From Novosphingobium beihaiense (lineage in GTDB: Bacteria > Pseudomonadota > Alphaproteobacteria > Sphingomonadales > Sphingomonadaceae): a DNA stretch of 64,000 bases. The translations under genes and the position numbers were made by a program. The notes below the pieces were generated by a model. The model did no database searches, had not been told where the DNA came from, and saw nothing but the letters and a program-made list of their open reading frames with translations. The stretch lies in contig NZ_JALHLG010000005.1 of NCBI RefSeq assembly GCF_022832375.1, positions 558,001-622,000 of the forward strand, read 5' to 3'. Every line of letters begins with the position of its first letter. The stretch's first letter is position 1. Positions 8,161-53,465 of the stretch are shown here, in pieces.

Positions 8161-10088
8161 CAGGAATCCCCCAGCAGAGCATCGACGATGAGGTTGGCGG
8201 CCTCTTCGGGCGACACCGCAGTGGTATCGATCCGGATTTCCGGATTGCGCGGCGCTTCATAAGGGCTGTCGATCCCGGTGAAGTTCTTCAGCTCGCCCGA
8301 GCGGGCCTTCTTGTAGAGGCCCTTGACGTCGCGCGCCTCGGCCACCTTCAGCGGCGTGTCGATGAACACCTCGAAGAACTCGCCTTCGGGCAGCATCGAG
8401 CGCACCATCTCGCGGTCCGCCTGGAACGGCGAGATGAAGGCGGTGATCACGATGAGCCCCGCGTCCGCCATCAGCTTCGAGACTTCGCCGACGCGGCGGA
8501 TGTTCTCGATCCGGTCGGACTCGGTGAAGCCCAGATCCTTGTTGAGGCCGTGGCGCACGTTGTCGCCATCGAGCAGGAAGGTGTGCCGGTTCATCCGGTG
8601 CAGCTTCTTCTCGACAAGGTTGGCGATGGTCGACTTGCCCGAGCCCGAAAGCCCCGTGAACCACAGCACGGCAGGCTGCTGGTTCTTGAGCCCCGCATGC
8701 TGCTTGCGACCGATATCGAGCGCCTGCCAGTGCACGTTCTGCGAACGGCGCAGGCTGAAGTTCAGCATGCCCGCCGCCACCGTGGCATTGGTCATCTTGT
8801 CGATCAGGATGAAGCCGCCCAGCGCACGGTTATCGGCATAGGGCTCGAACACGACCTGCTTGTCGGTCGCGATCTCGGCCACGCCGATGGCGTTGAGCTC
8901 CAGCGTCTTGGCGGCGAGGTGCTCCATGGTGTTGACGTTGACTTCGTACTTCGGTTCCTGAACCGTCGCCGAAACCATCTGCGTGCCCAGCTTGAGCCAA
9001 TAGGCGCGGCCGGGAACCATGGCATCGTCCGCCATCCACACCAGCGTGGCTTCGAACTGGTCGGCGGTCTGCGGCGGATTGTCGGCCACTGAAATCACCG
9101 AGCCGCGCGAGCAGTCGATCTCGTCCTCGAAGCAGACGGTGACGGACTGGCCGGCTCCGGCCTCGTCCAGCTCGCCGTCGAAGGTCACGATCTTGCTGAC
9201 CGTGCTGGTCTTGCCCGAGGGCAGCACGCGGATCTTGTCGCCCGGCTTTACTTCGCCCGTGGCGATCAGCCCGGAGAACCCGCGGAAGTCGAGGTTCGGG
9301 CGGTTCACCCATTGCACCGGCATGCGGAACGGCTTTTCGGCATCGGCCGAGCTGAGCACTTCCACCGTTTCCAGATGATCCACCAGCGTCGGCCCCTTGT
9401 ACCAGGGGGTGTTTTCCGAAGGCTTGGTGATGTTGTCGCCCTTGAAGCCGGAGATCGGCATCGCCGTGAAGCTTTCGATCCCGATCGAGCTGGCGAACTC
9501 GGTGTAGTCCGCCACGATCTTGTCGAAGACCTCCTGCTTGTAATCAACAAGGTCCATCTTGTTCACGGCCAGGACGATATTCTTCACGCCCAGCAGGTGG
9601 CAGATGTAGCTGTGACGGCGGGTCTGGACGAGCACGCCCTTGCGCGCGTCAATCAGGATCACCGCGAGGTCGGCGGTCGAGGCGCCCGTCACCATGTTGC
9701 GGGTGTACTGTTCGTGGCCCGGGCAGTCCGCGACGATGAACTTGCGCTTCTCGGTGTTGAAGAAGCGATAGGCCACATCGATGGTGATGCCCTGCTCGCG
9801 CTCGGCAGCGAGGCCGTCGACCAGCAGCGCGAAGTCGATGTCCTGCCCCTGCGTGCCGACCTTCTTCGAATCCGAAGTGAGGGCATCGAGCTGGTCCTCG
9901 AAGATCATCTTCGAATCGTAGAGCAAGCGGCCGATCAGCGTGGACTTGCCGTCATCGACACTGCCGCAGGTGATGAAGCGCAGCATCGTCTTGTGCTCGT
10001 GCTGCTCCAGATAGGCGTCGATGTCCTTTGAGATCAGCTCGTCGACGACGTAGACGGGTTCTTCGGTCTGGGTGGTTGCCTCGGTCAT
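8160..10088 (-). CDS. cysNC: Bifunctional sulfate adenylyltransferase subunit 1/adenylylsulfate kinase
   Basis: A 642-residue fusion. The N-terminal part is the CysN GTPase of ATP sulfurylase, with GSVDDGKST (G1), DCPGHEQY (G3) and NKMD (G4), followed by EF-Tu-like beta-barrel domains. The C-terminal part from about residue 455 is APS kinase (CysC) with its own P-loop GLSGSGKST and [10 protein letters not shown]. Together with CysD it converts sulfate to APS and then PAPS in the cytosol. It overlaps cysD and cysQ by one base on either side, so the three are translationally coupled. Fusion of CysN and CysC is common in alphaproteobacteria. Confidence 0.96.
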
Positions 10089-10990
10089 CAGAAGTACCCC
10101 TGCTGCTTCTTGACTTCCATGCCAGCACCGCCGGCATCCTTGTCGATAGCGCGGCCCTGCCGCTCGGACGTGGTGGTGAGCAGGGTTTCCTGAATCACCT
10201 CGGGGAGGGTCTTGGCGGTACTTTCCACTGCGCCGGTCAGCGGGTAGCAGCCCAGCGTGCGGAAGCGCACCGAGCGCATCACCGGCTTTTCGCCAGGCTT
10301 CAACGGGAAGCGGTCGTCATCGACCATGACCAGCATGCCGTCGCGCTCCACGGTCGGGCGCTCGTCGGCGAAGTAGAGCGGGACGATCGGAATGTCGTTG
10401 AGGTGGATGTACTGCCACACGTCGAGCTCGGTCCAGTTCGAGATCGGGAAGACGCGGATCGATTCGCCCTTGGCCTTGCGGGCATTGTAGAGGTTCCACA
10501 GCTCGGGGCGCTGGTTCTTCGGATCCCACCCGTGCGACTGCGTGCGGAACGAGAAGATGCGCTCCTTGGCGCGGCTCTTCTCTTCGTCACGGCGGGCACC
10601 GCCGAACGCAGCATCGAAGCCATACTTGTCGAGCGCCTGCTTGAGGCCTTCGGTCTTCCACATGTCGGTGTGGAGCGAGCCGTGGTCGAACGGGTTGATG
10701 CCCTTCTCGGCCGCTTCCGGGTTGTGATAGACCAGCAGGTCCATGCCCGAGAGCTCGGCCATCTTGTCGCGCAAGTCGTACATCGCCCGGAATTTCCACG
10801 TGGTATCGACGTGGAGCAGCGGAAACGGCGGCGGCGAAGGATAGAAGGCCTTACGGGCAAGGTGCAGCATGACGGCGCTGTCCTTGCCGACCGAGTAGAG
10901 CATCACCGGCTTTTCAGCTTCGGCGACGACTTCCCGGATGATGTGGATGCTTTCAGCCTCCAGCCTCTCAAGGTGTGTCAGGGTTTTCAT
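10088..10990 (-). CDS. cysD: Sulfate adenylyltransferase subunit 2
   Basis: A 300-residue ATP-pyrophosphatase-fold protein, the catalytic small subunit of ATP sulfurylase that partners CysN. The PP-loop [14 protein letters not shown] lies at about residues 33-46, and [14 protein letters not shown] and the arginine-rich [15 protein letters not shown] are typical of CysD. It heads the cysD-cysNC-cysQ unit. Upstream is a divergent LuxR-type regulator and a 16-bp palindrome. Confidence 0.96.
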
Positions 10991-11062
10991 GAAACATCCC
11001 TTTTTTGTTTAGTCCCGATTTTCGGGTCGCGAATCTCTTTGCAGGGATGACATTTTCAAAAA

Positions 11063-11078
11063 CCTCCCATATGGGAGG
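11063..11078. promoter_or_regulatory. 16-bp perfect palindrome in cysD-luxR intergenic region
   Basis: CCTCCCATATGGGAGG is its own reverse complement and lies 2 bp before the ATG of the LuxR-type gene (11081) and 72 bp upstream of cysD. The right arm contains the only purine-rich Shine-Dalgarno-like sequence for that gene, so a protein bound to the palindrome, or a hairpin in the mRNA, would block translation or transcription. Confidence 0.55.
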
Positions 11079-11080
11079 GT

Positions 11081-12169
11081 ATGGCGCTGACCAGTCGCGA
11101 CGAAACCGATCTTCTGCTTCCGCTCTTTCGCGGACTGTCCGAAGATGCGCGGTTTTCGACCTTTCTGGAAAGGGTTCGCAGCCGCACCGGAGCCGAATAC
11201 GTCGGCCTCGTCCAGCGTTCGGGCACCGGGCCGCATGCGGATGTGCAGGAATTCCATGCCGGGATCGACTTGCGTGCGCATGCGCAGGCCGCCGATCCGC
11301 TCGATACCCATGCGCTCGACCGTTTTCACTATGACGCCTTGCGGCCCGGCCGGGTCTATTCGATTTCCGAATTTTTCGACCACGATCCGGTCTATCGCGC
11401 CGAACGGACACGCCGTATGCAGCGCCTCGGCATCGCCGACGAGCGGGTGGTGCGCATCGCCGATATCGGCGATGTCAGCGCCTGGCTGATACTGGCGCGC
11501 GCCAGGCCCTGCACGGCCGCGGACAGCGCTCTGCTCTCCAGCCTCGCACCCTATGTGGAGGAAGCGCTGCGGGCTCATGTCGAGCTGGAAGGCAACCGCG
11601 TCCGCGCCAGCGTCAGCGTGCAGGGCCTTGCCCGTTCCGCCACGGCCTGGATGGTGATGGACCGCGAGGCGCGGCTGCTCTCGATCGATCCGCGCCTTGA
11701 TAGCTGGATGGCGGAAACGCTCGGTTACAGCCCGCGCATTGGCGAACGCCTGCACAATCTGGGCGTGCAGACCGAACGCGAACTGACGGCTGCAGCGGCT
11801 CATTTCACCGGCGATGATCCCGGCGCCCCCCGCCCGGTGCTGCTCTACGAAGAACCGAGACTGGAAGCGCTGCTCTCCGCCACCACGGACATGCCGCGCC
11901 CATCCATGCTGGTGCTCTGCCGCCTGCCCCATGCCCGCACGGCCGAAAGCGTGGAGCGCCTCGCCCGCCTGTTCGACCTGCCCCGCCGCGAGGCGGAACT
12001 GGCGGTGGCGCTCAACGAAGGCCTCTCGATCGCCGAAGCCGCCGAACGCATGGGGCTGACGCTGGAGACGGCGCGCAACTATTCCAAGCGGCTCTACGCC
12101 AAGCTGGGCGTGCGCGGACAGGCGGAACTGGTGCGTTTGGTGAGCGACAGTGTCGCGGTGATGGCATAG
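11081..12169 (+). CDS. LuxR-family (GerE-type HTH) transcriptional regulator
   Basis: A 362-residue regulator. The C-terminal 65 residues form a LuxR/GerE helix-turn-helix (LPRREAELAVALNEGLSIAE through ETARNYSKRLYAKLGVRGQ), with the usual LFDLPRREAEL entry and conserved Lys/Leu-Gly pattern. The N-terminal 280 residues show no acyl-homoserine-lactone-binding signature I recognise and resemble the PAS/GAF-like sensory regions of long sphingomonad LuxR proteins. It diverges from cysD, but whether it controls sulfate assimilation is only a guess from position. The SD-like GGAGG is just two bases from the ATG, unusually close. Confidence 0.85.
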   Translation: MALTSRDETDLLLPLFRGLSEDARFSTFLERVRSRTGAEYVGLVQRSGTGPHADVQEFHAGIDLRAHAQAADPLDTHALDRFHYDALRPGRVYSISEFFDHDPVYRAERTRRMQRLGIADERVVRIADIGDVSAWLILARARPCTAADSALLSSLAPYVEEALRAHVELEGNRVRASVSVQGLARSATAWMVMDREARLLSIDPRLDSWMAETLGYSPRIGERLHNLGVQTERELTAAAAHFTGDDPGAPRPVLLYEEPRLEALLSATTDMPRPSMLVLCRLPHARTAESVERLARLFDLPRREAELAVALNEGLSIAEAAERMGLTLETARNYSKRLYAKLGVRGQAELVRLVSDSVAVMA

Positions 12170-39143: not shown

Positions 39144-39220
39144 TGGCGCGAGTGACGGGACTCGAACCCGCGACCTTCGGCGTGACAGGCCGACACTCTA
39201 ACCAACTGAGCTACACCCGC
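39144..39220 (-). tRNA. tRNA-Asp(GTC), copy 1
   Basis: A 77-nt cloverleaf with encoded CCA. The minus strand begins GCGGGTGTAGCTCAGTTGG, has anticodon GTC in CTGTCAC, T-arm GGTTCGAACC and ends in CACTCGCGCCA. This is the 3'-most of three identical copies on the transcribed strand. Confidence 0.97.
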
Positions 39221-39289
39221 ACAGCTATATCTATCGCCAGGAAAACCTGACTTTCCGCTTTCTTCCGATCTCCCGGAAGAAATCCCAAG

Positions 39290-39366
39290 TGGCGCGAGTG
39301 ACGGGACTCGAACCCGCGACCTTCGGCGTGACAGGCCGACACTCTAACCAACTGAGCTACACCCGC
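39290..39366 (-). tRNA. tRNA-Asp(GTC), copy 2
   Basis: Identical in sequence to the neighbouring copies, 146 bp from each, with the intervening 69-bp spacer also repeated. Confidence 0.97.
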
Positions 39367-39435
39367 ACAGCTATATCTATCGCCAGGAAAACCTGACTTT
39401 CCGCTTTCTTCCGATCTCCCGGAAGAAATCCCAAG

Positions 39436-39512
39436 TGGCGCGAGTGACGGGACTCGAACCCGCGACCTTCGGCGTGACAGGCCGACACTCTAACCAACTG
39501 AGCTACACCCGC
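39436..39512 (-). tRNA. tRNA-Asp(GTC), copy 3
   Basis: First in transcription order. The 146-bp period makes this a tandem duplication of the gene plus spacer. Confidence 0.97.
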
Positions 39513-45249: not shown

Positions 45250-45384
45250 GAGCTTCCCCTGTGAGAGCCCCTGCCCTACCTGCCGCACGCCCGGAGCGAA
45301 AGATGAACGCCTCGCCCGGCGCCCTGCCCCATGCCGACTTTTCCACATCGGCACGCTGCGTTGCAGGAAATGCACATTAGGCTC

Positions 45385-45413
45385 TTGCCACCTTCTGAAT
45401 CGCTCTCTATAGG
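45385..45413 (+). promoter_or_regulatory. tRNA-Pro promoter
   Basis: TTGCCA (45385-45390), a 17-bp spacer and TATAGG (45408-45413) lie about 40 bp before the tRNA-Pro gene. Confidence 0.65.
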
Positions 45414-45454
45414 CGCGCTCCTGCCTCGGGCCGCTTCAACGCGGCACGATCGGT

Positions 45455-45531
45455 CGGGGAGTAGCTCAGCCTGGTAGAGCACTGTCTTCGGGAGGCAGGG
45501 GCCGGAGGTTCGAATCCTCTCTCCCCGACCA
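45455..45531 (+). tRNA. tRNA-Pro(CGG)
   Basis: A 77-nt cloverleaf: acceptor CGGGGAG pairs with CTCCCCG, discriminator A, encoded CCA. The anticodon loop is TTCGGGA, anticodon CGG. Its 3' 51 bases (45481-45531) are duplicated at 53393-53443, the far end of an integrated island. Confidence 0.97.
45481..45531. repeat. attL: 3' end of tRNA-Pro, 51-bp direct repeat
   Basis: Identical over 51 bp to 53393-53443, from ACTGTCTTCGGG through CTCCCCGACCA. Sequence differs on both outer sides, so the limits are exact. It regenerates an intact tRNA at the left junction. Confidence 0.93.
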
Positions 45532-45640
45532 ATTATTTTCCTTGAAAATCAGGTTGTTAGCGCACCGTTCCATACAGAGCGGGCCTACGGCTTTCGCGTT
45601 TTCGGCGCTCCGATCACAACTCGATCACACGGAGCAGAAA

Positions 45641-46663
45641 ATGGCGACCATTACCAAGCGGAAGAACGGCTGGTGCGTCCAAGTGCGGCGCAGGGGATAC
45701 GCGGCACGGAACAACACGTTCCCGACAAAGACAGAGGCCCGTGCGTGGGGCCGGGAGCAGGAAGCCCTGATCGACAAGGGCCAGCTTCCCATCACCGAAG
45801 TCCAGCTCAAGGTGACAAGGCTCGCACAACTCATCGAACAGTATCGCTCAACCGTTACCCCTTCAAAGCGCAGCGCGGAGACGGAACGCCTGCGGCTGGG
45901 CCGGATGATGGGCGACATGATCATGGACCGTCTGCTGATTGACCTGAAGCCGGGAGACTTCGCTGCCTACAGGGATAGACGGCTGGCAGTCGTGAAGCCG
46001 GGAACGGTAAGACGGGAACTCTACCTGTTCGCCAATGCCATTGACGTTGCGACGAAGGAGTGGGGTTATCCCTTCCGCAGCAACCCGGTTCGCCTTATCA
46101 GCCTCCCCATTGCCAATGACGCGAGGGACCGGCGCTTGGAGGGCGATGAAGCGGAAACCCTGCGCAAGGCGCTATCGGCCAGCCGCAATCCTTTCATCCT
46201 TCCCATCGTGGAACTTGCCATCGAGACGGGCTTGCGCAGGCGCGAGGTTCTGGAACTGACGTGGAGCAACGTCGACGCGACACGCCGGATCGCGTTCATA
46301 CCCCAGACGAAGACAGGCCAGCCACGCACCATTCCCCTCACTGATTGCGCCCTCACCATCATCACGACTCTGACCCGAAGTGACGATGATCGCCTGTTCC
46401 CGATCACGCTCAACGCCTTCAAGCAGGCATGGAAGCGGGTCCAGAAGCGTTCGGGCCTTGAGGACCTGCGCTTTCACGATCTGCGCCACGAAGCCCTATC
46501 CCGCTTTTGCGAGCTCGGCTTGTCAGTGCCGGAACTATCGGTGATTTCGGGGCACAAAGACCCTCGTATGCTGTTCCGATATGCTCACCTGAGGGCCGAT
46601 GATCTGGCACGGAAGCTGGCCGGGCGAGAATGGGGCGCAGAAGTCCGTCAGCAAGGAGCTTGA
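45641..46663 (+). CDS. Tyrosine recombinase (island integrase)
   Basis: A 340-residue phage-type integrase. N-terminal SAM-like and arm-binding parts (TKRKNGWCVQVRRRG, then KRSAETERLRLGRMM) precede the catalytic domain. Visible catalytic positions are Arg in ETGLRRREVLEL, His-x-x-Arg in HDLRHEALSRF, His in SGHKDPRML and Tyr in FRYAHL. It lies just inside the tRNA-Pro att repeat, as in most tRNA-integrated islands. ATG 45641 has GGAGCAG upstream; the frame continues to a TTG at 45542 in the att-proximal region. Confidence 0.94.
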   Translation: MATITKRKNGWCVQVRRRGYAARNNTFPTKTEARAWGREQEALIDKGQLPITEVQLKVTRLAQLIEQYRSTVTPSKRSAETERLRLGRMMGDMIMDRLLIDLKPGDFAAYRDRRLAVVKPGTVRRELYLFANAIDVATKEWGYPFRSNPVRLISLPIANDARDRRLEGDEAETLRKALSASRNPFILPIVELAIETGLRRREVLELTWSNVDATRRIAFIPQTKTGQPRTIPLTDCALTIITTLTRSDDDRLFPITLNAFKQAWKRVQKRSGLEDLRFHDLRHEALSRFCELGLSVPELSVISGHKDPRMLFRYAHLRADDLARKLAGREWGAEVRQQGA

Positions 46664-46666
46664 GCT

Positions 46667-46873
46667 ATGAGCCCACATGATGACCCGAAGCCCTCATGGG
46701 AACTTCGCAGCGAGTTGGAAGGCATCCAGCGGGCGATAGAGGCGGACTTGTGCGGAGACATTGGAGAACTTCGCGTCAGAGTCGGCCAGCTACGCGCAGC
46801 GGTCGGGAGCCTTGTTATCCCGGTCTATCTCAGCGCCTTTGCCCTGAGCGCCATTGCCTATCGCCTCTGGTAG
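46667..46873 (+). CDS. Small predicted membrane protein of the island
   Basis: A 68-residue protein with a charged helical N-terminus (WELRSELEGIQRAIEADL then ELRVRVGQLRAAV) that may form a coiled coil, followed by one transmembrane segment (LVIPVYLSAFALSAIAYRLW) at the C-terminus. It begins 4 bp after the integrase stop with AAGGAGCTTGAGCT upstream. I do not recognise the family. Confidence 0.65.
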   Translation: MSPHDDPKPSWELRSELEGIQRAIEADLCGDIGELRVRVGQLRAAVGSLVIPVYLSAFALSAIAYRLW

Positions 46874-46970: not shown

Positions 46971-48506
46971 ATGCCGACACTTCAATGGTGGACCCGCGAC
47001 GATGATGTGAAGGCGGCGGATGCGGTGCCCTATCGGCTGCTGGAAGAAGTGCCCGAGCTGGGTGCGGGCGATCCCGATGCGGGCAACATGCTCATTCAGG
47101 GGGACAACCTTGAGGCGCTGAAGGCCCTGCTGCCGTACTACGCGGGGCAGGTGAAATGCGTCTACATCGACCCGCCGTACAACACCAAGTCGGCCTTCGA
47201 GCATTACGACGACAATCTGGAACATTCGCAGTGGCTCGCCATGATCTATCCGCGCCTCGTGCTGCTGCGCGAGCTACTGGCGGAAGAAGGCAGTATCTGG
47301 GTGTCCATCGACGACAACGAAGGACACTACCTCAAGGTCATCATGGACGAGGTGTTCGGGAGGTCGAATTTCCTTTCTTCGATGATATGGAGGAAGAACT
47401 ACTCTCCGAAGTCGACAGCAAGACATTTCTCTGAAGACCATGACTATCTACTGGTCTACGCTAAGAATTCCGAAAAGTGGCGCCCAAATCTAATGCCGCG
47501 AACGGAAAAGCAGAACACGGCGTACAAAAACCCAGACGGTGATCCGAGAGGGCCATGGAAAACGAGCGATCTTTCGGCCCGCAACTTTTACAGTAAAGGG
47601 ATATACTCGATCACCAGCCCGAGTGGTCGGTTTATAGAGCGGCCACCGGGCGGAAACTACTGGCGCGTTGCTGAAAACAAGTTTTGGGAGTTGGATCGCG
47701 ACAACCGCATTTGGTGGGGCCGGGATGGCAGCGCCATTCCACAAATCAAGCGGTTCCTGTCAGAGGTTAAGCAAGGAATAGTCCCGCAAACCTACTGGTC
47801 TTACGAAGAAGTAGGCCACACGCAGGATGCTAAGAAGGAGGTCCTCGCCCTTTCCCGTTCAGATGTGTTCATCACCCCAAAGCCGGAAGCATTGCTGCGT
47901 CGTACGCTGCATATTGCGAGCAATCCCGGCGATCTGGTTCTCGACAGCTTCCTCGGCTCCGGCACCACGGCAGCGGTCGCGCACAAGATGGGCCGTCGCT
48001 ACATCGGCATCGAAATGGGCGACCATGCTGCAACGCACTGCCAGCCGCGCCTCTCCAAAGTCGTGGAAGGCGAACAGGGCGGCATTTCCGAAGCAGTCGC
48101 CTGGAAAGGCGGTGGCGGCTTCCGCTTCTTCCGCCTCGGCCCAAGCGTCTTCGATGACCAAGGGCAAATCCGGCCCAACATCGAGTTCGACACGCTGGCG
48201 GCGCACGTCTGGTTCTCCGAGAAGGAAAAGCCATGGGAGCAGCCCAGCCGCAAGGGAACCGTTCTGGGCATCAAAGACGGCAAGGCTCTGGCCCTGCTCT
48301 ACAATGGCATCCTCAAGGATCGTTCGGTCGATGGCGGCAACGTCCTGACCCGCGCCACACTGAAGGTCATTCGGCAAGACCTGCCCGAAGGCTTCGACGG
48401 GCCGCTTATGATCTATGGCGAACGCTGCATCCTTTCCGACGCCACCCTGGAACGCGAGAAGATCACCTTCAAGCAGACCCCCTATGACGTGAAGGCCCGC
48501 GCCTGA
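46971..48506 (+). CDS. mod: Type III restriction-modification methyltransferase (Mod)
   Basis: A 511-residue beta-class adenine DNA methyltransferase. DPPY (YIDPPYNT, about residue 65) comes before the SAM motif FLGSGTT (about 325), the order for beta-class enzymes, and the target-recognition region lies between at roughly 140-300. The N-terminus MLIQGDNLEALKALL is typical of Mod. It recognises the DNA and is required for Res activity. The res gene starts in the TGATG overlap of the stop. Target-recognition codons look more AT-rich than the flanking parts. Confidence 0.93.
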   Translation: MPTLQWWTRDDDVKAADAVPYRLLEEVPELGAGDPDAGNMLIQGDNLEALKALLPYYAGQVKCVYIDPPYNTKSAFEHYDDNLEHSQWLAMIYPRLVLLRELLAEEGSIWVSIDDNEGHYLKVIMDEVFGRSNFLSSMIWRKNYSPKSTARHFSEDHDYLLVYAKNSEKWRPNLMPRTEKQNTAYKNPDGDPRGPWKTSDLSARNFYSKGIYSITSPSGRFIERPPGGNYWRVAENKFWELDRDNRIWWGRDGSAIPQIKRFLSEVKQGIVPQTYWSYEEVGHTQDAKKEVLALSRSDVFITPKPEALLRRTLHIASNPGDLVLDSFLGSGTTAAVAHKMGRRYIGIEMGDHAATHCQPRLSKVVEGEQGGISEAVAWKGGGGFRFFRLGPSVFDDQGQIRPNIEFDTLAAHVWFSEKEKPWEQPSRKGTVLGIKDGKALALLYNGILKDRSVDGGNVLTRATLKVIRQDLPEGFDGPLMIYGERCILSDATLEREKITFKQTPYDVKARA

Positions 48507-51154
48507 TGGAACTCAAGACCTACCAGAAGGCCGCGCTTGGCACGCTGCGCGATTACCTTGCCGAAGCCCGCGTTACCGGCCCTGTGGAAGCCTACAGGAC
48601 CGTGACAAGCCAGCCTGAGATACAGCAGCGTCTAGGGGCCTATCTCACGCCCTATCGGCCCTTAAAGGAACTGACGGACGCCCCCTACGTCTGCCTGCGT
48701 CTGCCTACCGGCGGCGGGAAGACCATCCTTGCCGCGCACAGCATCGACGCTGCGCGGGAGGCATGGATCGAAAAGGACTATCCGCTGGTCCTTTGGCTGG
48801 TCCCCACCACCACGATCCGCAAGCAGACCGTGGAGGCCCTGAAGAACCCGCGTCATCCCTATCGGAAAGTGCTGGACAATGCCTTTGGCGGCAAAGTGCG
48901 CGTGGTCGACATTGGCGATTTCGCCCAGCTCACCCCCCATGACCTGACCGCCAACTGCTGCGTCATAGTTGGCACCATCCAGACCCTGCGTGTGTCGAAC
49001 ACCGAAGGGCGCAAGGTCTATGCCCATAACGAGGCACTGGAACCCCACTTCGCAGCAATCCCGAAGAAGGCCCCCGGCCTTGAGAAGATCGAGGACGATA
49101 AGAAGGGCGCGGGAACCATCCGCTACTCCTTCGCCAATTTGCTCCACCTCCACCGCCCCTTGATGATCGTCGACGAAGCGCATCAGGCGGTCACGGGCCT
49201 CTCGCAGGAAATGCAACGGCGAGTGAACCCCACGGCCATCATCGAGTTCACCGCGACTCCTCGGCTCCAATCCAACCTGCTCCACTCCGTCACCGCGCAG
49301 GAGCTGAAGAACGAAGACATGATCAAGCTGCCGGTCATGCTGGCCGAGCATCCAACATGGCAACAGGCGGTCGACGGGGCGATCCTGAAGCGTCAGGAGC
49401 TACAGGACATTGCGGAGACGGACGCACGGTACATCCGTCCCATCGTCCTGTTTCAAGCTCAGAACAAGAACCAGACCGCCAACGTCGATACCCTGAAGCA
49501 GTACCTGCTGGACGAAGGCATAACCGAAAACCGCATCGCCATCGCAACCGGCGATCAGCGCGAACTGGATGACGTGAACCTGTTCGACCCTGCCTGCGAG
49601 GTCGACTTCGTAATCACGGTGGAGGCCCTGAAGGAAGGCTGGGACTGCTCCTTCGCCTACGTCTTTTGTTCCCTCGCCAACATCGAAAACGCGACCGATG
49701 CCGAACAGCTTTTGGGACGCGTTCTACGGATGCCGTACGCGAAAGCGCGGAAAGACCCTCGGCTCAACAAGGCCTACGCGCACCTAGCTTCCCCGAGCTT
49801 CTCTGCTGCGGCGATGGCCCTGCGCGACAAGATGGTGGCGATGGGCTTCGACGAAACCGAAGCCACTCAGAACATCCAGCCGCAGCAGGGCGACCTCGAC
49901 ACTGGTCTGTTCGGCCCTCAGGCTCGCCCCAAACCCTCCATCACCGTCAACGTAGACCTGAGCGAAGAAGACGAGGCGTTGTTGCGCGACGTGGCTCCTG
50001 AAAAGGTCCAAGTCTCGACAACTGATCAGGGCAAGGTCATTCGCGTCGTTGGCTTCCTGACCCCCGATGAGAAGGCCAAAGTTCGTGCCGCCATCCCCGG
50101 TGCGGTGGCGAACAAGGTCAAGGAAGCTCTGGACACTTACGAGGCCGAGAACGCGGCCCGTATGTCTCCTGCGGCAAAAGGGCTCACCTTCACCGTGCCC
50201 GCTCTCATGGTCCACGTTCAAGGCGAGCTTGAGTTGGCCGAAACGGACCTGCTGATGGAGCATTGCAACTGGTCGCTGCTTAGCCATTCAGCCCAGCTTG
50301 ACGGTTCGGCTTTCGACGTGAAGCAAACAGCCAATACCTTCGAGATCGACCTAGACGGGCGAAAGGTCACAGTGTCCAGCCGTGATCCCGAAACCCAGAT
50401 CAGTTTCGACGTAGACGTGGAAGGATGGACCGAAACCGGATTGGTCCTGTTTCTCGCCAAACAGGTTCGAGAGGCTGACCTGAGCCCCACGGAACTGATC
50501 GAGTGGCTGACCAAGGCCGTGTCGCATCTGACGGGAGCGCGGGACCTGCCTCTTCCGGGTCTGATGCAGTGCAAGTACGTCCTTGCCCGCAAGCTCAAGG
50601 AGCGTGTGGCCGAAATCAGGAAGAAGGAACGGGGCGACCTCTATCAGGCCAGTCTTTTCGGAAGCGAGGCGCAGCCTGAGATCAGCTTCGAGAACGGCTT
50701 CACCTTCAAGGACGGCATGTTCGGAGGCGTGAAGCTCTACCACGGCGGCTACGAGTTCCAGAAGCATTTCTTCGGCCCGGACCATATTCCCGCCTTCGAC
50801 GGCAAACCGGGAGGCGACGAGGAACAGTGCGCGAAGGAACTCGACAACCTGCCTGCGGACATCCTCAAGCATTGGGTCAGGAACGTCTCACAACATCAGG
50901 ACGCCCTGTGGCTCCCGCTGGCCGAAAACCGCTTCTACCCTGACTTCGTGGCCGAGCTGACCGATGGGCGGCTCTTGCTGATCGAGTACAAGGGCGGGCA
51001 CATCGTCACCTCGGACGACACGAAGAACAAGGTGGCCGTGGGCAGACTCTGGGAGCAGACCATGAACGGCAAGGGTCTGTTCCTGCTGGTCGAGAAACTG
51101 GTCGACGGTAAGCCTCCGAGGGAGCAGATACTGGCGAAGATCAAGGGAAGCTGA
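48506..51154 (+). CDS. res: Type III restriction endonuclease/helicase subunit (Res)
   Basis: An 882-residue SF2 helicase-nuclease. Helicase motifs: Walker A LPTGGGKTILAA (about 66-77), DEAHQAV, ATPRLQ and a C-terminal helicase domain with AEQLLGRVLRMPYA. The nuclease end has FYPDFVAELTDGRLLLIEYKGG, seen as PD followed by EYKG, a PD-(D/E)XK pattern. With Mod it tracks DNA and cleaves unmethylated target pairs. All expected parts are intact, so the system looks functional. It starts in a 1-bp overlap with mod and is followed by a terminator. Confidence 0.94.
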   Translation: MELKTYQKAALGTLRDYLAEARVTGPVEAYRTVTSQPEIQQRLGAYLTPYRPLKELTDAPYVCLRLPTGGGKTILAAHSIDAAREAWIEKDYPLVLWLVPTTTIRKQTVEALKNPRHPYRKVLDNAFGGKVRVVDIGDFAQLTPHDLTANCCVIVGTIQTLRVSNTEGRKVYAHNEALEPHFAAIPKKAPGLEKIEDDKKGAGTIRYSFANLLHLHRPLMIVDEAHQAVTGLSQEMQRRVNPTAIIEFTATPRLQSNLLHSVTAQELKNEDMIKLPVMLAEHPTWQQAVDGAILKRQELQDIAETDARYIRPIVLFQAQNKNQTANVDTLKQYLLDEGITENRIAIATGDQRELDDVNLFDPACEVDFVITVEALKEGWDCSFAYVFCSLANIENATDAEQLLGRVLRMPYAKARKDPRLNKAYAHLASPSFSAAAMALRDKMVAMGFDETEATQNIQPQQGDLDTGLFGPQARPKPSITVNVDLSEEDEALLRDVAPEKVQVSTTDQGKVIRVVGFLTPDEKAKVRAAIPGAVANKVKEALDTYEAENAARMSPAAKGLTFTVPALMVHVQGELELAETDLLMEHCNWSLLSHSAQLDGSAFDVKQTANTFEIDLDGRKVTVSSRDPETQISFDVDVEGWTETGLVLFLAKQVREADLSPTELIEWLTKAVSHLTGARDLPLPGLMQCKYVLARKLKERVAEIRKKERGDLYQASLFGSEAQPEISFENGFTFKDGMFGGVKLYHGGYEFQKHFFGPDHIPAFDGKPGGDEEQCAKELDNLPADILKHWVRNVSQHQDALWLPLAENRFYPDFVAELTDGRLLLIEYKGGHIVTSDDTKNKVAVGRLWEQTMNGKGLFLLVEKLVDGKPPREQILAKIKGS

Positions 51155-51202
51155 ACTTCCGGGCAAGCTCCCGCCTCTCAGACCTTGGACAACAACAACC
51201 AG

Positions 51203-51225
51203 AGCTGGCCTTTACCGGCTTTTTT
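51203..51225 (+). terminator. Terminator after res
   Basis: AGCTGG and CCGGCT arms (one G-T pair) with a 6-base loop, followed by six T residues. It isolates the downstream helicase-like gene transcriptionally from the RM pair. Confidence 0.6.
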
Positions 51226-51452
51226 GAAGACCCCTTCCTGTTTCCGGCTCAGGGTAGTCGAAGGCAGGGAAAGGGGACCCTATTTCGTCGACCAGAGCAG
51301 GACCTTCTCCTTCCCCTCAGGTGAACGAAGGGGGATGCAGAAAAGTGGACCCGTTCCTATTAAGAGATAGGCAATCAACAACTTTTAGACGGCTCAAGGC
51401 AGCGCAAGCCTTCCCTGTATCTCTTCAGACATTGACCCATAAGGCACTGACA

Positions 51453-53201
51453 ATGATCACTCTCGCAGGCATTGCCTACGATGACCTCTCCGCATATCTG
51501 ACTGAGAAAGGGTCTGCTCCCCACGGCGAACAAGAAGCTGCCCTGAGAGGCTTCATGAGGGTCTTGGAGCGTGGTCTGCAAGGCGATCTGGAACGGTGCT
51601 ACTACGTCCTTCCTCTCGACCCTGGCATGGGGAAGACCCGAGCCTGCATCAGCTTCGTGAAGGCATGGCGTCAGGCGGGCTATCAGCCTGCGTCCAGCAT
51701 CCTGATCGGCCTATCGACGCTTGCCGAACTGGAAAAGATGATCAATGAAATGGGGCTTCTCTCCCATGAGTTCGGGGTCTTCACGAGCAAGGACGAAATG
51801 AACGTCCTTGGCCTCCCTGAGGACCGGCACGGTGAAGCAAGGGTCCTCTTCACGACACAGCAGATGATCAGAAGCAGGACCAAAGGCCGTTCCTTCGCAG
51901 ATGCTGCCGAGTTCCATTACCAAGGCTCACCCCGCGCCCTGCGACTGTGGGACGAGAGTATCTTGCCCGCTGCCCATGTTGTCATGGATAGGGACACACT
52001 CAGTGGAATGGTCCGATCCTTTCGTAAGCGCCTGCCAGCGTTCGCAAACGCATTGGACACCTTCGCGGCCTCGATGGTCGCGCAGAACGATGGGGACGTG
52101 ATCACTGTGCCTGACAGCTTGACCCTTGGCCCATCGTCATTGCAGCGAGCCAAGGCATCGGTCGAGACGAAGGGAGAGAAGACCCTACTCGAAAATCTGC
52201 AACAGATGATCGGTTGTCAGATGGTCCTGCGAGATCAGCCTCACGCAGGCACAGTCTTGGTCGGCTCTACACCTGTCTTGCCCGATGACTTCGCCCCTGT
52301 TGTCGTTGTCGACGCATCTGCAAGGGTCAGGACCGCATATCAGCTCTGGGCCGAACATCGTCGTAACGTCGCGATACTGCCCGGAGCGGGGCACAGCTTC
52401 CACAACATGACAATTCACCACTGGCACAGGAGCAGTGGCAAGCAAGCCCTTTTCAGTGATCTTGATCGTCGGGAAATTGCAGAAGGTATCGCAGAGGCTT
52501 GGCGACGTGATCCCAAAGGTAAGTGGCTAGTCGTTTCCTACAAGGACACCCTTGATCCCCTGAAGCTGGCCGTAAAGCATGCTATCGGCGATGAGGGGGC
52601 TCAGTTGGAATGGCTCCACTGGGGTCTACACACAAGCACCAACGCCTTCAGGGATACCGATAACATCGTGATTGTGGGTCAGTGGACCTATCCACCTGCC
52701 ACCTACGAGGCGATAGCGATGGCTGCGTCTGGCTTGGGTCCTGTGGAGGCGAGCAGCCTCAACGTGCGGGACGTGGAGACAGGCGAACACGCCCATAACC
52801 TCCTTCAGGCCCTCTGCCGAGCGTCAGTTCGCAAGTCCATCCGTGGAGGTACAGCCCGATGCAACGCCTTCCTGATTACGTCCCTGTCAGACACAGAGAC
52901 ATTTCTCGAAACACTGTTCCCCGGCCATAGCTACGCGAAGTGGAGAGAGGGCAGCATAGCGTCGGAAGCCGTAGGCAAGGCGATGGAGCTTGTAGACGCC
53001 CACTTCGCCACCACTGGACCATCACCCATGAAGAAGAAGGACCTGAGGGACGCTGTAGGCATCAAGGATGCGTCTCACTTCACTCGCCGTGTCCTACAAC
53101 AGCCTGCGTTCTTACACTTCCTTGCCTCACGTCAGCTTGAGAGCAGCGGGCAGGCCATCAAGCCAGTTGAATGCGCTTTCGATCCCATCGACGACGACTG
53201 A
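51453..53201 (+). CDS. Divergent SF2-helicase-like protein with C-terminal winged-helix-like end
   Basis: A 582-residue protein I do not recognise as a named family. Walker A is DPGMGKT (residues 56-62); motif II reads WDES (166-169) instead of DExH; VVVVDASAR (283-291), KWLVVSYKD (about 357-365), the HWGLHTSTNAFRDTDNIVIVG stretch (as motifs near 389-409) and QALCRASVRKSIRGG (452-466) fit SF2 motifs III to VI. The last 60 residues (KKDLRDAVGIKDASHFTRRV) look like a helix-turn-helix. Start ATG 51453 is chosen for MITLAG...; 44 extra codons upstream lack support. Alternatives are a satellite replication helicase or a defence ATPase. It has its own transcription unit, behind a terminator. Confidence 0.72.
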   Translation: MITLAGIAYDDLSAYLTEKGSAPHGEQEAALRGFMRVLERGLQGDLERCYYVLPLDPGMGKTRACISFVKAWRQAGYQPASSILIGLSTLAELEKMINEMGLLSHEFGVFTSKDEMNVLGLPEDRHGEARVLFTTQQMIRSRTKGRSFADAAEFHYQGSPRALRLWDESILPAAHVVMDRDTLSGMVRSFRKRLPAFANALDTFAASMVAQNDGDVITVPDSLTLGPSSLQRAKASVETKGEKTLLENLQQMIGCQMVLRDQPHAGTVLVGSTPVLPDDFAPVVVVDASARVRTAYQLWAEHRRNVAILPGAGHSFHNMTIHHWHRSSGKQALFSDLDRREIAEGIAEAWRRDPKGKWLVVSYKDTLDPLKLAVKHAIGDEGAQLEWLHWGLHTSTNAFRDTDNIVIVGQWTYPPATYEAIAMAASGLGPVEASSLNVRDVETGEHAHNLLQALCRASVRKSIRGGTARCNAFLITSLSDTETFLETLFPGHSYAKWREGSIASEAVGKAMELVDAHFATTGPSPMKKKDLRDAVGIKDASHFTRRVLQQPAFLHFLASRQLESSGQAIKPVECAFDPIDDD

Positions 53202-53392
53202 TCGCTGGCTTATTCGAGGGTCTGGACCGGTCATCTTTAACAAGACGACGGGCAATCCCGATCACAATCGTGTCACACTGAGCTCTGTGATTGCACCATC
53301 AACCCGTATCCGCTATGATCGTTATGAGCGACAAAACGCACGCATTTTCAAGGCTTTAAGGGCCATCAGGAGACACGAAACCTACGGGTAAA
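53202..53392. other. Island right-end non-coding region
   Basis: About 190 bp without a gene between the helicase-like gene and the att repeat. It contains GATCACAATCGTGTCACACTGAGC and other AT-rich repeats that may be recombinase arm-type binding sites, as GATCACA is also seen before the integrase gene at 45616-45628. Confidence 0.4.
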
Positions 53393-53443
53393 ACTGTCTT
53401 CGGGAGGCAGGGGCCGGAGGTTCGAATCCTCTCTCCCCGACCA
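53393..53443. repeat. attR: 51-bp direct repeat of tRNA-Pro 3' end
   Basis: Perfect copy of 45481-45531. Lacking the 5' half of the tRNA it is not a functional tRNA gene. Beyond it, TTTTCATCC resumes chromosomal sequence. Confidence 0.93.
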
Positions 53444-53465
53444 TTTTCATCCGCATAATGTATAT

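Follow-up and report, generated by a model that had tools for sequence, protein, structure and literature searches.

The window (the whole 64,000-nucleotide stretch of DNA analysed here) contains an ORF on the + strand at 51453-53201 that was originally predicted to encode an unrecognised helicase-like protein, carried as cargo on an island beside type III restriction-modification (RM) genes. The ORF has an ATG start and encodes 582 aa; an alternative longer start, GTG, lies at 51321, and the close relatives at loci L018 and L019 start near the ATG at 51453. The features around it are as follows.

45455-45531, +: tRNA-Pro (CGG) gene, the integration target (ARAGORN)
45481-45534, +: attL, a 54-bp direct repeat forming the 3' part of the tRNA-Pro gene
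45610-45635, +: candidate integrase arm-type site, CCGATCACAACTCGATCACACGGAGC, 77% like 53258-53283
45641-46663, +: tyrosine integrase (phrog_1 E 6e-59; PF00589 over cut-off)
46667-46873, +: small 68-aa ORF, hydrophobic at its C-terminal end (no PADLOC or PHROGs family)
46971-48506, +: type III DNA methyltransferase (mod), read as cargo (PADLOC MTase_III E 8.6e-195)
48506-51154, +: type III restriction subunit (res), read as cargo (PADLOC REase_III E 1.9e-175)
51453-53201, +: predicted SF2 (DinG/XPD-type) helicase gene whose product ends in a winged-helix-like domain; suggested to serve in replication/maintenance of the element
53258-53283, +: candidate integrase arm-type site near attR
53393-53446, +: attR, the second copy of the 54-bp repeat and right element end

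The integrated element

The attL and attR copies are identical at 53 of 54 bases and bound an element of 7,966 bp (7.97 kb), in which the helicase gene is the last gene and ends 245 bp before the right end. Two congeneric genomes (L096 and L115) have an empty site with a single repeat copy. In L096, window positions 45360-45534 align to 8728-8554 and 53393-53458 to 8607-8545, followed by 53635 onward; the junction in L115 is the same, though further differences follow downstream of it. Since the left and right flanks meet at one repeat copy in these congeners, the 7.97-kb element is a real insertion, and the gene sits on an island as predicted.

The integrase ORF opens at TTG 45542, with a likely ATG start at 45641. 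PADLOC confirms both mod and res as the adjoining type III RM genes named in the original prediction, and all large ORFs of the element are assigned to functions other than relaxase. A terminator had been proposed between res and the helicase gene, which are 298 bp apart; a scan of 51050-51560 found none on the + strand and one weak terminator-like site on the - strand, within chance expectation. Just inside both element ends (45610-45635 and 53258-53283) lie copies, 77% alike, of a 26-bp motif (CCGATCACAA...TCACAC.GAGC) that may be integrase arm-type binding sites. Elsewhere in the window, at 39144-39512, three consecutive tRNA-Asp (GTC) genes lie on the - strand at regular 146-bp intervals.

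A family absent from current libraries

The window protein matches no Pfam, NCBIfam, PADLOC or PHROG family above cut-off in searches of these four libraries, in keeping with its description as unrecognised. The best family match, ResIII, has E 0.23 and falls far short of the cut-off; PADLOC-DB 2.0.0 returned no families at E up to 1, and the PDB searched by sequence gave chance matches only. Phage records contained no tblastn match for the window protein, for L058 or for P0001, a helicase-like protein of genome G197. Two relatives match phrog_2467, a PHROG of unknown function (E 7e-6 and 0.009); as a query it also matches 10 of 14 control genomes, so it reflects a general SF2 signal and was rejected as a family label.

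GTDB and IMG/VR scanned with the single sequence yielded nothing, but an alignment query did find homologues: 41 loci in GTDB, mostly Alphaproteobacteria with a minority in a few Thermodesulfobacteriota, Planctomycetota, Bacteroidota and gammaproteobacterial MAGs, and one contig in IMG/VR. Whole-genome searches, from which the window's own genome was excluded, found divergent homologues in ~1% of the genomes sampled (4 of 299 in the family sample; 3 of 385 in the class sample, one of them marginal; 3 of 398 in the phylum sample, one match not credible), and plasmid records added homologues in Ruegeria and Azospirillum, plus a distant one in Eleftheria. We thus have ~48 homologous loci, mainly from Alphaproteobacteria; in a maximum-likelihood tree the window protein clusters with the sphingomonad homologues. 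Two candidates were set aside: a match in G557 (E 8e-4) yields no credible homologous ORF, and P0001, which adjoins a primase-like ORF, aligned over only ~98 columns (hhalign probability 76%).

Helicase motifs

Conservation was assessed with 38 homologues sharing 25-35% identity with the window protein.

51618-51638, +: motif I (Walker A) DPGMGKT, residues 56-62 (38-homologue alignment)
51948-51959, +: motif II WDES, residues 166-169 (W166 in 37 of 38, D and E in 38 of 38)
52302-52325, +: motif III-like VVVDASAR (D and S in 38 of 38)
52806-52832, +: motif VI QALCRASVR (Q452, R456 and R460 in 37 of 38, with a gap there in the remaining one)
52965-53165, +: C-terminal winged-helix-like domain, residues 505-571 (predicted structure)

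The Walker A motif, the DE-box and the motif VI arginines expected of an SF2 helicase are all conserved in the 38-row alignment, and P57, G58, G60, K61, D167, E168, D287, S289, Y296, G391 and N397 are invariant. The motifs that had been picked out in the ORF from the sequence alone, namely Walker A, WDES, VVVVDASAR (residues 283-291 of the 582-aa protein), a motif V-like segment and QALCRASVRKS (residues 452-462), are conserved in the homologues. Such conservation at 25-35% identity shows, as judged from the alignment, that the SF2 motifs are functional and did not arise by chance.

Predicted structure

AlphaFold2, run on the 38-row alignment, gave a model of the window protein with pLDDT 92 and pTM 0.84 that has a tandem RecA-like core and hundreds of SF2 structural matches. 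Foldseek against the PDB placed CasDinG, DinG and XPD first (8v44, a CasDinG, at E 1.8e-13), the top 12 all being DinG/CasDinG. VIA gave Z 23.0 to DinG 6fws_B over 456 residues (rmsd 7.1, 9% identity) and Z 21-22 to CasDinG, and its top 6 were all DinG. By its predicted fold the window protein is a DinG/XPD-type SF2 helicase without Fe-S cysteines: the 38-row alignment contains no conserved four-Cys Fe-S set between motifs I and II of the window protein, and Cys is frequent there only in columns 86 (27/38) and 143 (19/38). The prediction of an SF2-helicase-like protein is thus borne out by the fold, and profile searching and structure prediction together assign it to no named family and to a DinG/XPD-type SF2 fold.

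A helix-turn-helix-like C-terminal end had also been proposed, and the prediction there is of a winged-helix-like fold; the C-terminal 87 residues folded alone form helices and then a short two-stranded wing (pLDDT 85). Because the structural matches are weak (best Z 6.5, including SelB and MCM/CMG winged helices), we regard the tail as likely, and not more firmly than that, to be winged-helix-like. The protein is a real, unannotated member of an unnamed family; the family itself is new, and its kind, probably a replication-type helicase of small integrative elements, is known.

Helicase homologues in compact integrated elements

The family is encoded in integrated mobile elements, for which att repeats, integrases and an empty site were observed. 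A tyrosine integrase lies within ~10 kb of the helicase gene in 24 of the 28 fully flanked loci (those with at least 8 kb on both sides) and is present in 33 of all 49 loci, and a small serine recombinase is found in about half (23/49). The window genome has 11 integrase hits in 4.53 Mb, so by simple arithmetic ~5% of such intervals would hold one by chance. Two integrase families serve the helicase loci, the DUF6538-type and that of the window, and the helicase therefore persists while the integrase changes.

Direct repeats at tRNA genes delimit ten complete elements, 5.8-11.5 kb in size: that of the window and nine others, whose repeats of 46-120 bp lie at tRNA genes for Ser, Arg, Val, Ala, Thr and Leu. 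In six of the ten the helicase gene is 245-687 bp from one element end. The recurrent Pfam families among their 63 ORFs are integrase (11) and resolvase (3), and no relaxase, capsid, terminase or plasmid Rep family occurs among the 25 families listed, out of 37, for these ORFs. Even the closest homologues, L018 and L019, carry different cargo, and the L055 element encodes an integrase and a primase-helicase, with otherwise small ORFs only.

We note that two small families without Pfam matches among the members scanned, of 97-104 aa and 163-173 aa, lie upstream of the helicase in Rhizobiales elements (L039:7277-8106, L047:8216-9012 and L050:7976-8269). The Eleftheria terrae locus, on a betaproteobacterial plasmid (L066:3324-10032), has an integrase, a serine recombinase and the distant helicase homologue (24% identity), in the same recurring order.

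Primase modules

Three relatives connect the helicase with primases. L039 (Mesorhizobium, 910 aa) has RepB_primase (E 2.5e-11) and PriCT_2 (E 4.8e-6) followed by the helicase domain, and L055 (Rhodoplanes, 932 aa) has PriCT_2 (E 1.4e-15) and RepB_primase (E 1.4e-6), likewise ahead of this helicase domain; in L059 (Bosea) the ORF directly upstream of the helicase is a PriCT_2 protein (local HMM). These primase-linked homologues fall in two clades separated by supported branches in the maximum-likelihood tree. The family search found no AEP primase domain in the window protein, in contrast to L039 and L055. At L023 (8557-10584 and 10571-11920, - strand) the helicase-like P0001 directly follows a primase-like ORF (phrog_25314 E 1e-23, phrog_2478 E 7e-11); P0001 is family-like in a short stretch only, and from its sequence this may be a parallel primase-helicase pair.

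The position and company of the gene could also be explained if the helicase assisted excision, integration or transfer, as a recombination or packaging/mobilisation motor, and not replication. It lies 245 bp from attR here and within ~700 bp of an end in 6/10 elements, and it is linked to integrases of two families. However, the integrases at eighteen loci, though of the same kind, lack such a helicase in their vicinity and apparently work without it; simple integrases need no helicase, and the primase fusions favour replication. We consider such a motor quite improbable.

RM genes and other cargo

RM genes were detected near 11 of 49 helicase loci versus 1 of 18 control loci that contain an integrase of the same type but no helicase, an enrichment that is suggestive only, being not significant (one-sided Fisher ~0.1 by hand) and obtained with a biased detector, whose reference RM proteins were drawn partly from the test loci. 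The systems are mostly type I, with type IIG twice and type III in the window only (1/49). RM genes are thus occasional neighbours of the homologues, and it is the integrases of the islands that are common ones. As this linkage is occasional and the types vary, RM is best read as exchangeable cargo.

These counts bear on whether the helicase could serve the type III RM system as an accessory subunit, a reading favoured by its place on the same strand and 298 bp downstream of res. The type III pairing occurs in the window only, other loci having type I, type IIG or no detected RM, and mod and res are already a complete pair, which makes a subunit role highly implausible. That the gene is not simply a third RM subunit had been argued from the terminator; it stands instead on the loci, most of which have no detected RM and the others different RM types.

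A stand-alone anti-phage or anti-plasmid defence helicase beside RM, with a DinG-like motor that would unwind or destroy invading DNA in the manner of helicases from other defence systems, has more in its favour. Its structural neighbours include CasDinG of type IV CRISPR, an Hna monomer entry (9yhn) and DdmD, DinG-like motors do occur in defence systems, RM genes are near 11/49 homologues, and other island cargo looks defensive, such as an AriA/OLD-like ATPase in L024 and a type IIG RM in L057. Yet the window protein has no PADLOC match and its predicted model no nuclease domain, the helicase persists in elements without recognisably defensive genes (L055 and L049, for example), and the primase fusions point to replication. 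We therefore regard a defence function as unlikely.

Several loci have arrangements of their own. In Ruegeria sp. HKCCA6707 two inverted helicase genes of equal length and score flank a type I RM operon (L034:252-2156, - strand, and 9797-11701, + strand), and L005 shows a like arrangement, with RM and helicase between two BRO gene copies that share one protein accession. In Aestuariispira insulae (L032:185-11554) genes for a DEAD/ResIII helicase and a HATPase protein come after the helicase, together with one that, by eye, may be PAPS-reductase-like; this is perhaps a DNA phosphorothioation-type defence cluster.

A proposed role in element replication

We infer that the gene is probably a backbone replication or maintenance gene of a compact tRNA-integrated mobile element, coding for an ATP-driven helicase, with RM as cargo. 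Replication is suggested by the RepB-primase/PriCT-2 modules, fused or adjacent in two separate clades, and backbone status by the way homologues track integrases while the remaining island content varies. Three observations count against replication: the ten elements yielded neither an origin nor iterons or conserved binding repeats, and in the window element and most of the others iteron or origin repeats did not exceed the background of shuffled sequence; the primase module is attached or adjoining in only 3 of ~48 homologues; and the winged-helix call rests on weak structural matches. The original prediction had offered an anti-phage or an element-maintenance factor, of which maintenance is the better supported, given the integrases at 24/28 loci and the primase fusions, and anti-phage activity the less so; its labelling of the helicase as cargo is probably wrong, a backbone gene being more likely.

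In the replication scheme that we propose, the integrase would excise the element as a circle, on which the helicase would open or extend the replication fork, its winged-helix-like tail perhaps guiding it. The element would thereby be copied, and so not lost before re-integration or transfer. Elements without a primase domain, such as that of the window, would use the host primase; resolution of circle multimers would fall to the serine recombinase that about half of the relatives have, and the type III RM genes would be exchangeable defence cargo. A wider picture, which we offer tentatively and think somewhat doubtful as a whole, is of an unnamed family of hitch-hiking integrative elements of 6-11.5 kb, found chiefly in Alphaproteobacteria. 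Their origin helicase for replication would be the DinG/XPD-type SF2 protein, accompanied in some by a RepB primase; they would move by hijacking a phage, gene transfer agent or conjugative element as helper, carrying RM and other defence genes from one tRNA site to another.

The 38-row alignment and the confident structure provide a handle on a family that Pfam, NCBIfam, PADLOC and PHROG do not annotate and that turns up repeatedly in small mobile islands, several of which carry restriction systems. If the replication role is true, DinG/XPD-type SF2 motors would be one more kind of replicative helicase to accompany mobile-element primases, beyond those already seen, and such islands, with their cargo, could be found by using the gene as a marker.

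Comparison with known systems

DinG/XPD (Rad3-like) helicases, including CasDinG, have the closest solved fold over residues 1-501 (VIA Z 21-23, rmsd 6-7), and motifs I, II and VI appear usable in the window protein. CasDinG is not known to have the four-Cys Fe-S cluster, which is lacking here too. The window protein differs from the DinG/XPD group in its identity of ~10%, in lacking a conserved set of Cys between motifs I and II and in its extra, predicted C-terminal winged-helix-like domain; its family has WDE[AS] instead of DEAH as motif II, and its genomic association is with integrases in place of CRISPR or repair loci. The herpesvirus origin-binding protein UL9 (PF02399) is similarly an SF2 motor with a DNA-binding tail; 7 of 38 homologues match it weakly (best E 0.0032) and the window protein does not, so that these matches are a mere hint and no evidence of membership.

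The PICMI satellites of vibrios (PMC10803314) resemble the window element as integrative elements of ~6 kb with an integrase, a replication gene and defence-type cargo, and deletion of their primase lowers element replication or copy number. They encode AlpA, have a DUF3987/DUF5906 primase and are inserted at fis, whereas the window element is in tRNA-Pro, has an SF2 helicase without a DUF3987/DUF5906 domain and has no known helper phage.

A further parallel is to the primase-helicase proteins PrimPol-PV1/All3500, with SF2-like C-termini, described in a primase census (PMC5862659) that also names the pVOG1685/9714 group and predicts uncharacterised SF2-like domains fused to such primases to be mobile-element replication helicases. 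The window protein, unlike these, has no primase domain. It shares with them an SF2-like motor, a winged-helix-like end and residence in integrated elements, and its relatives L039 and L055 combine RepB primase and PriCT_2 with the helicase domain.
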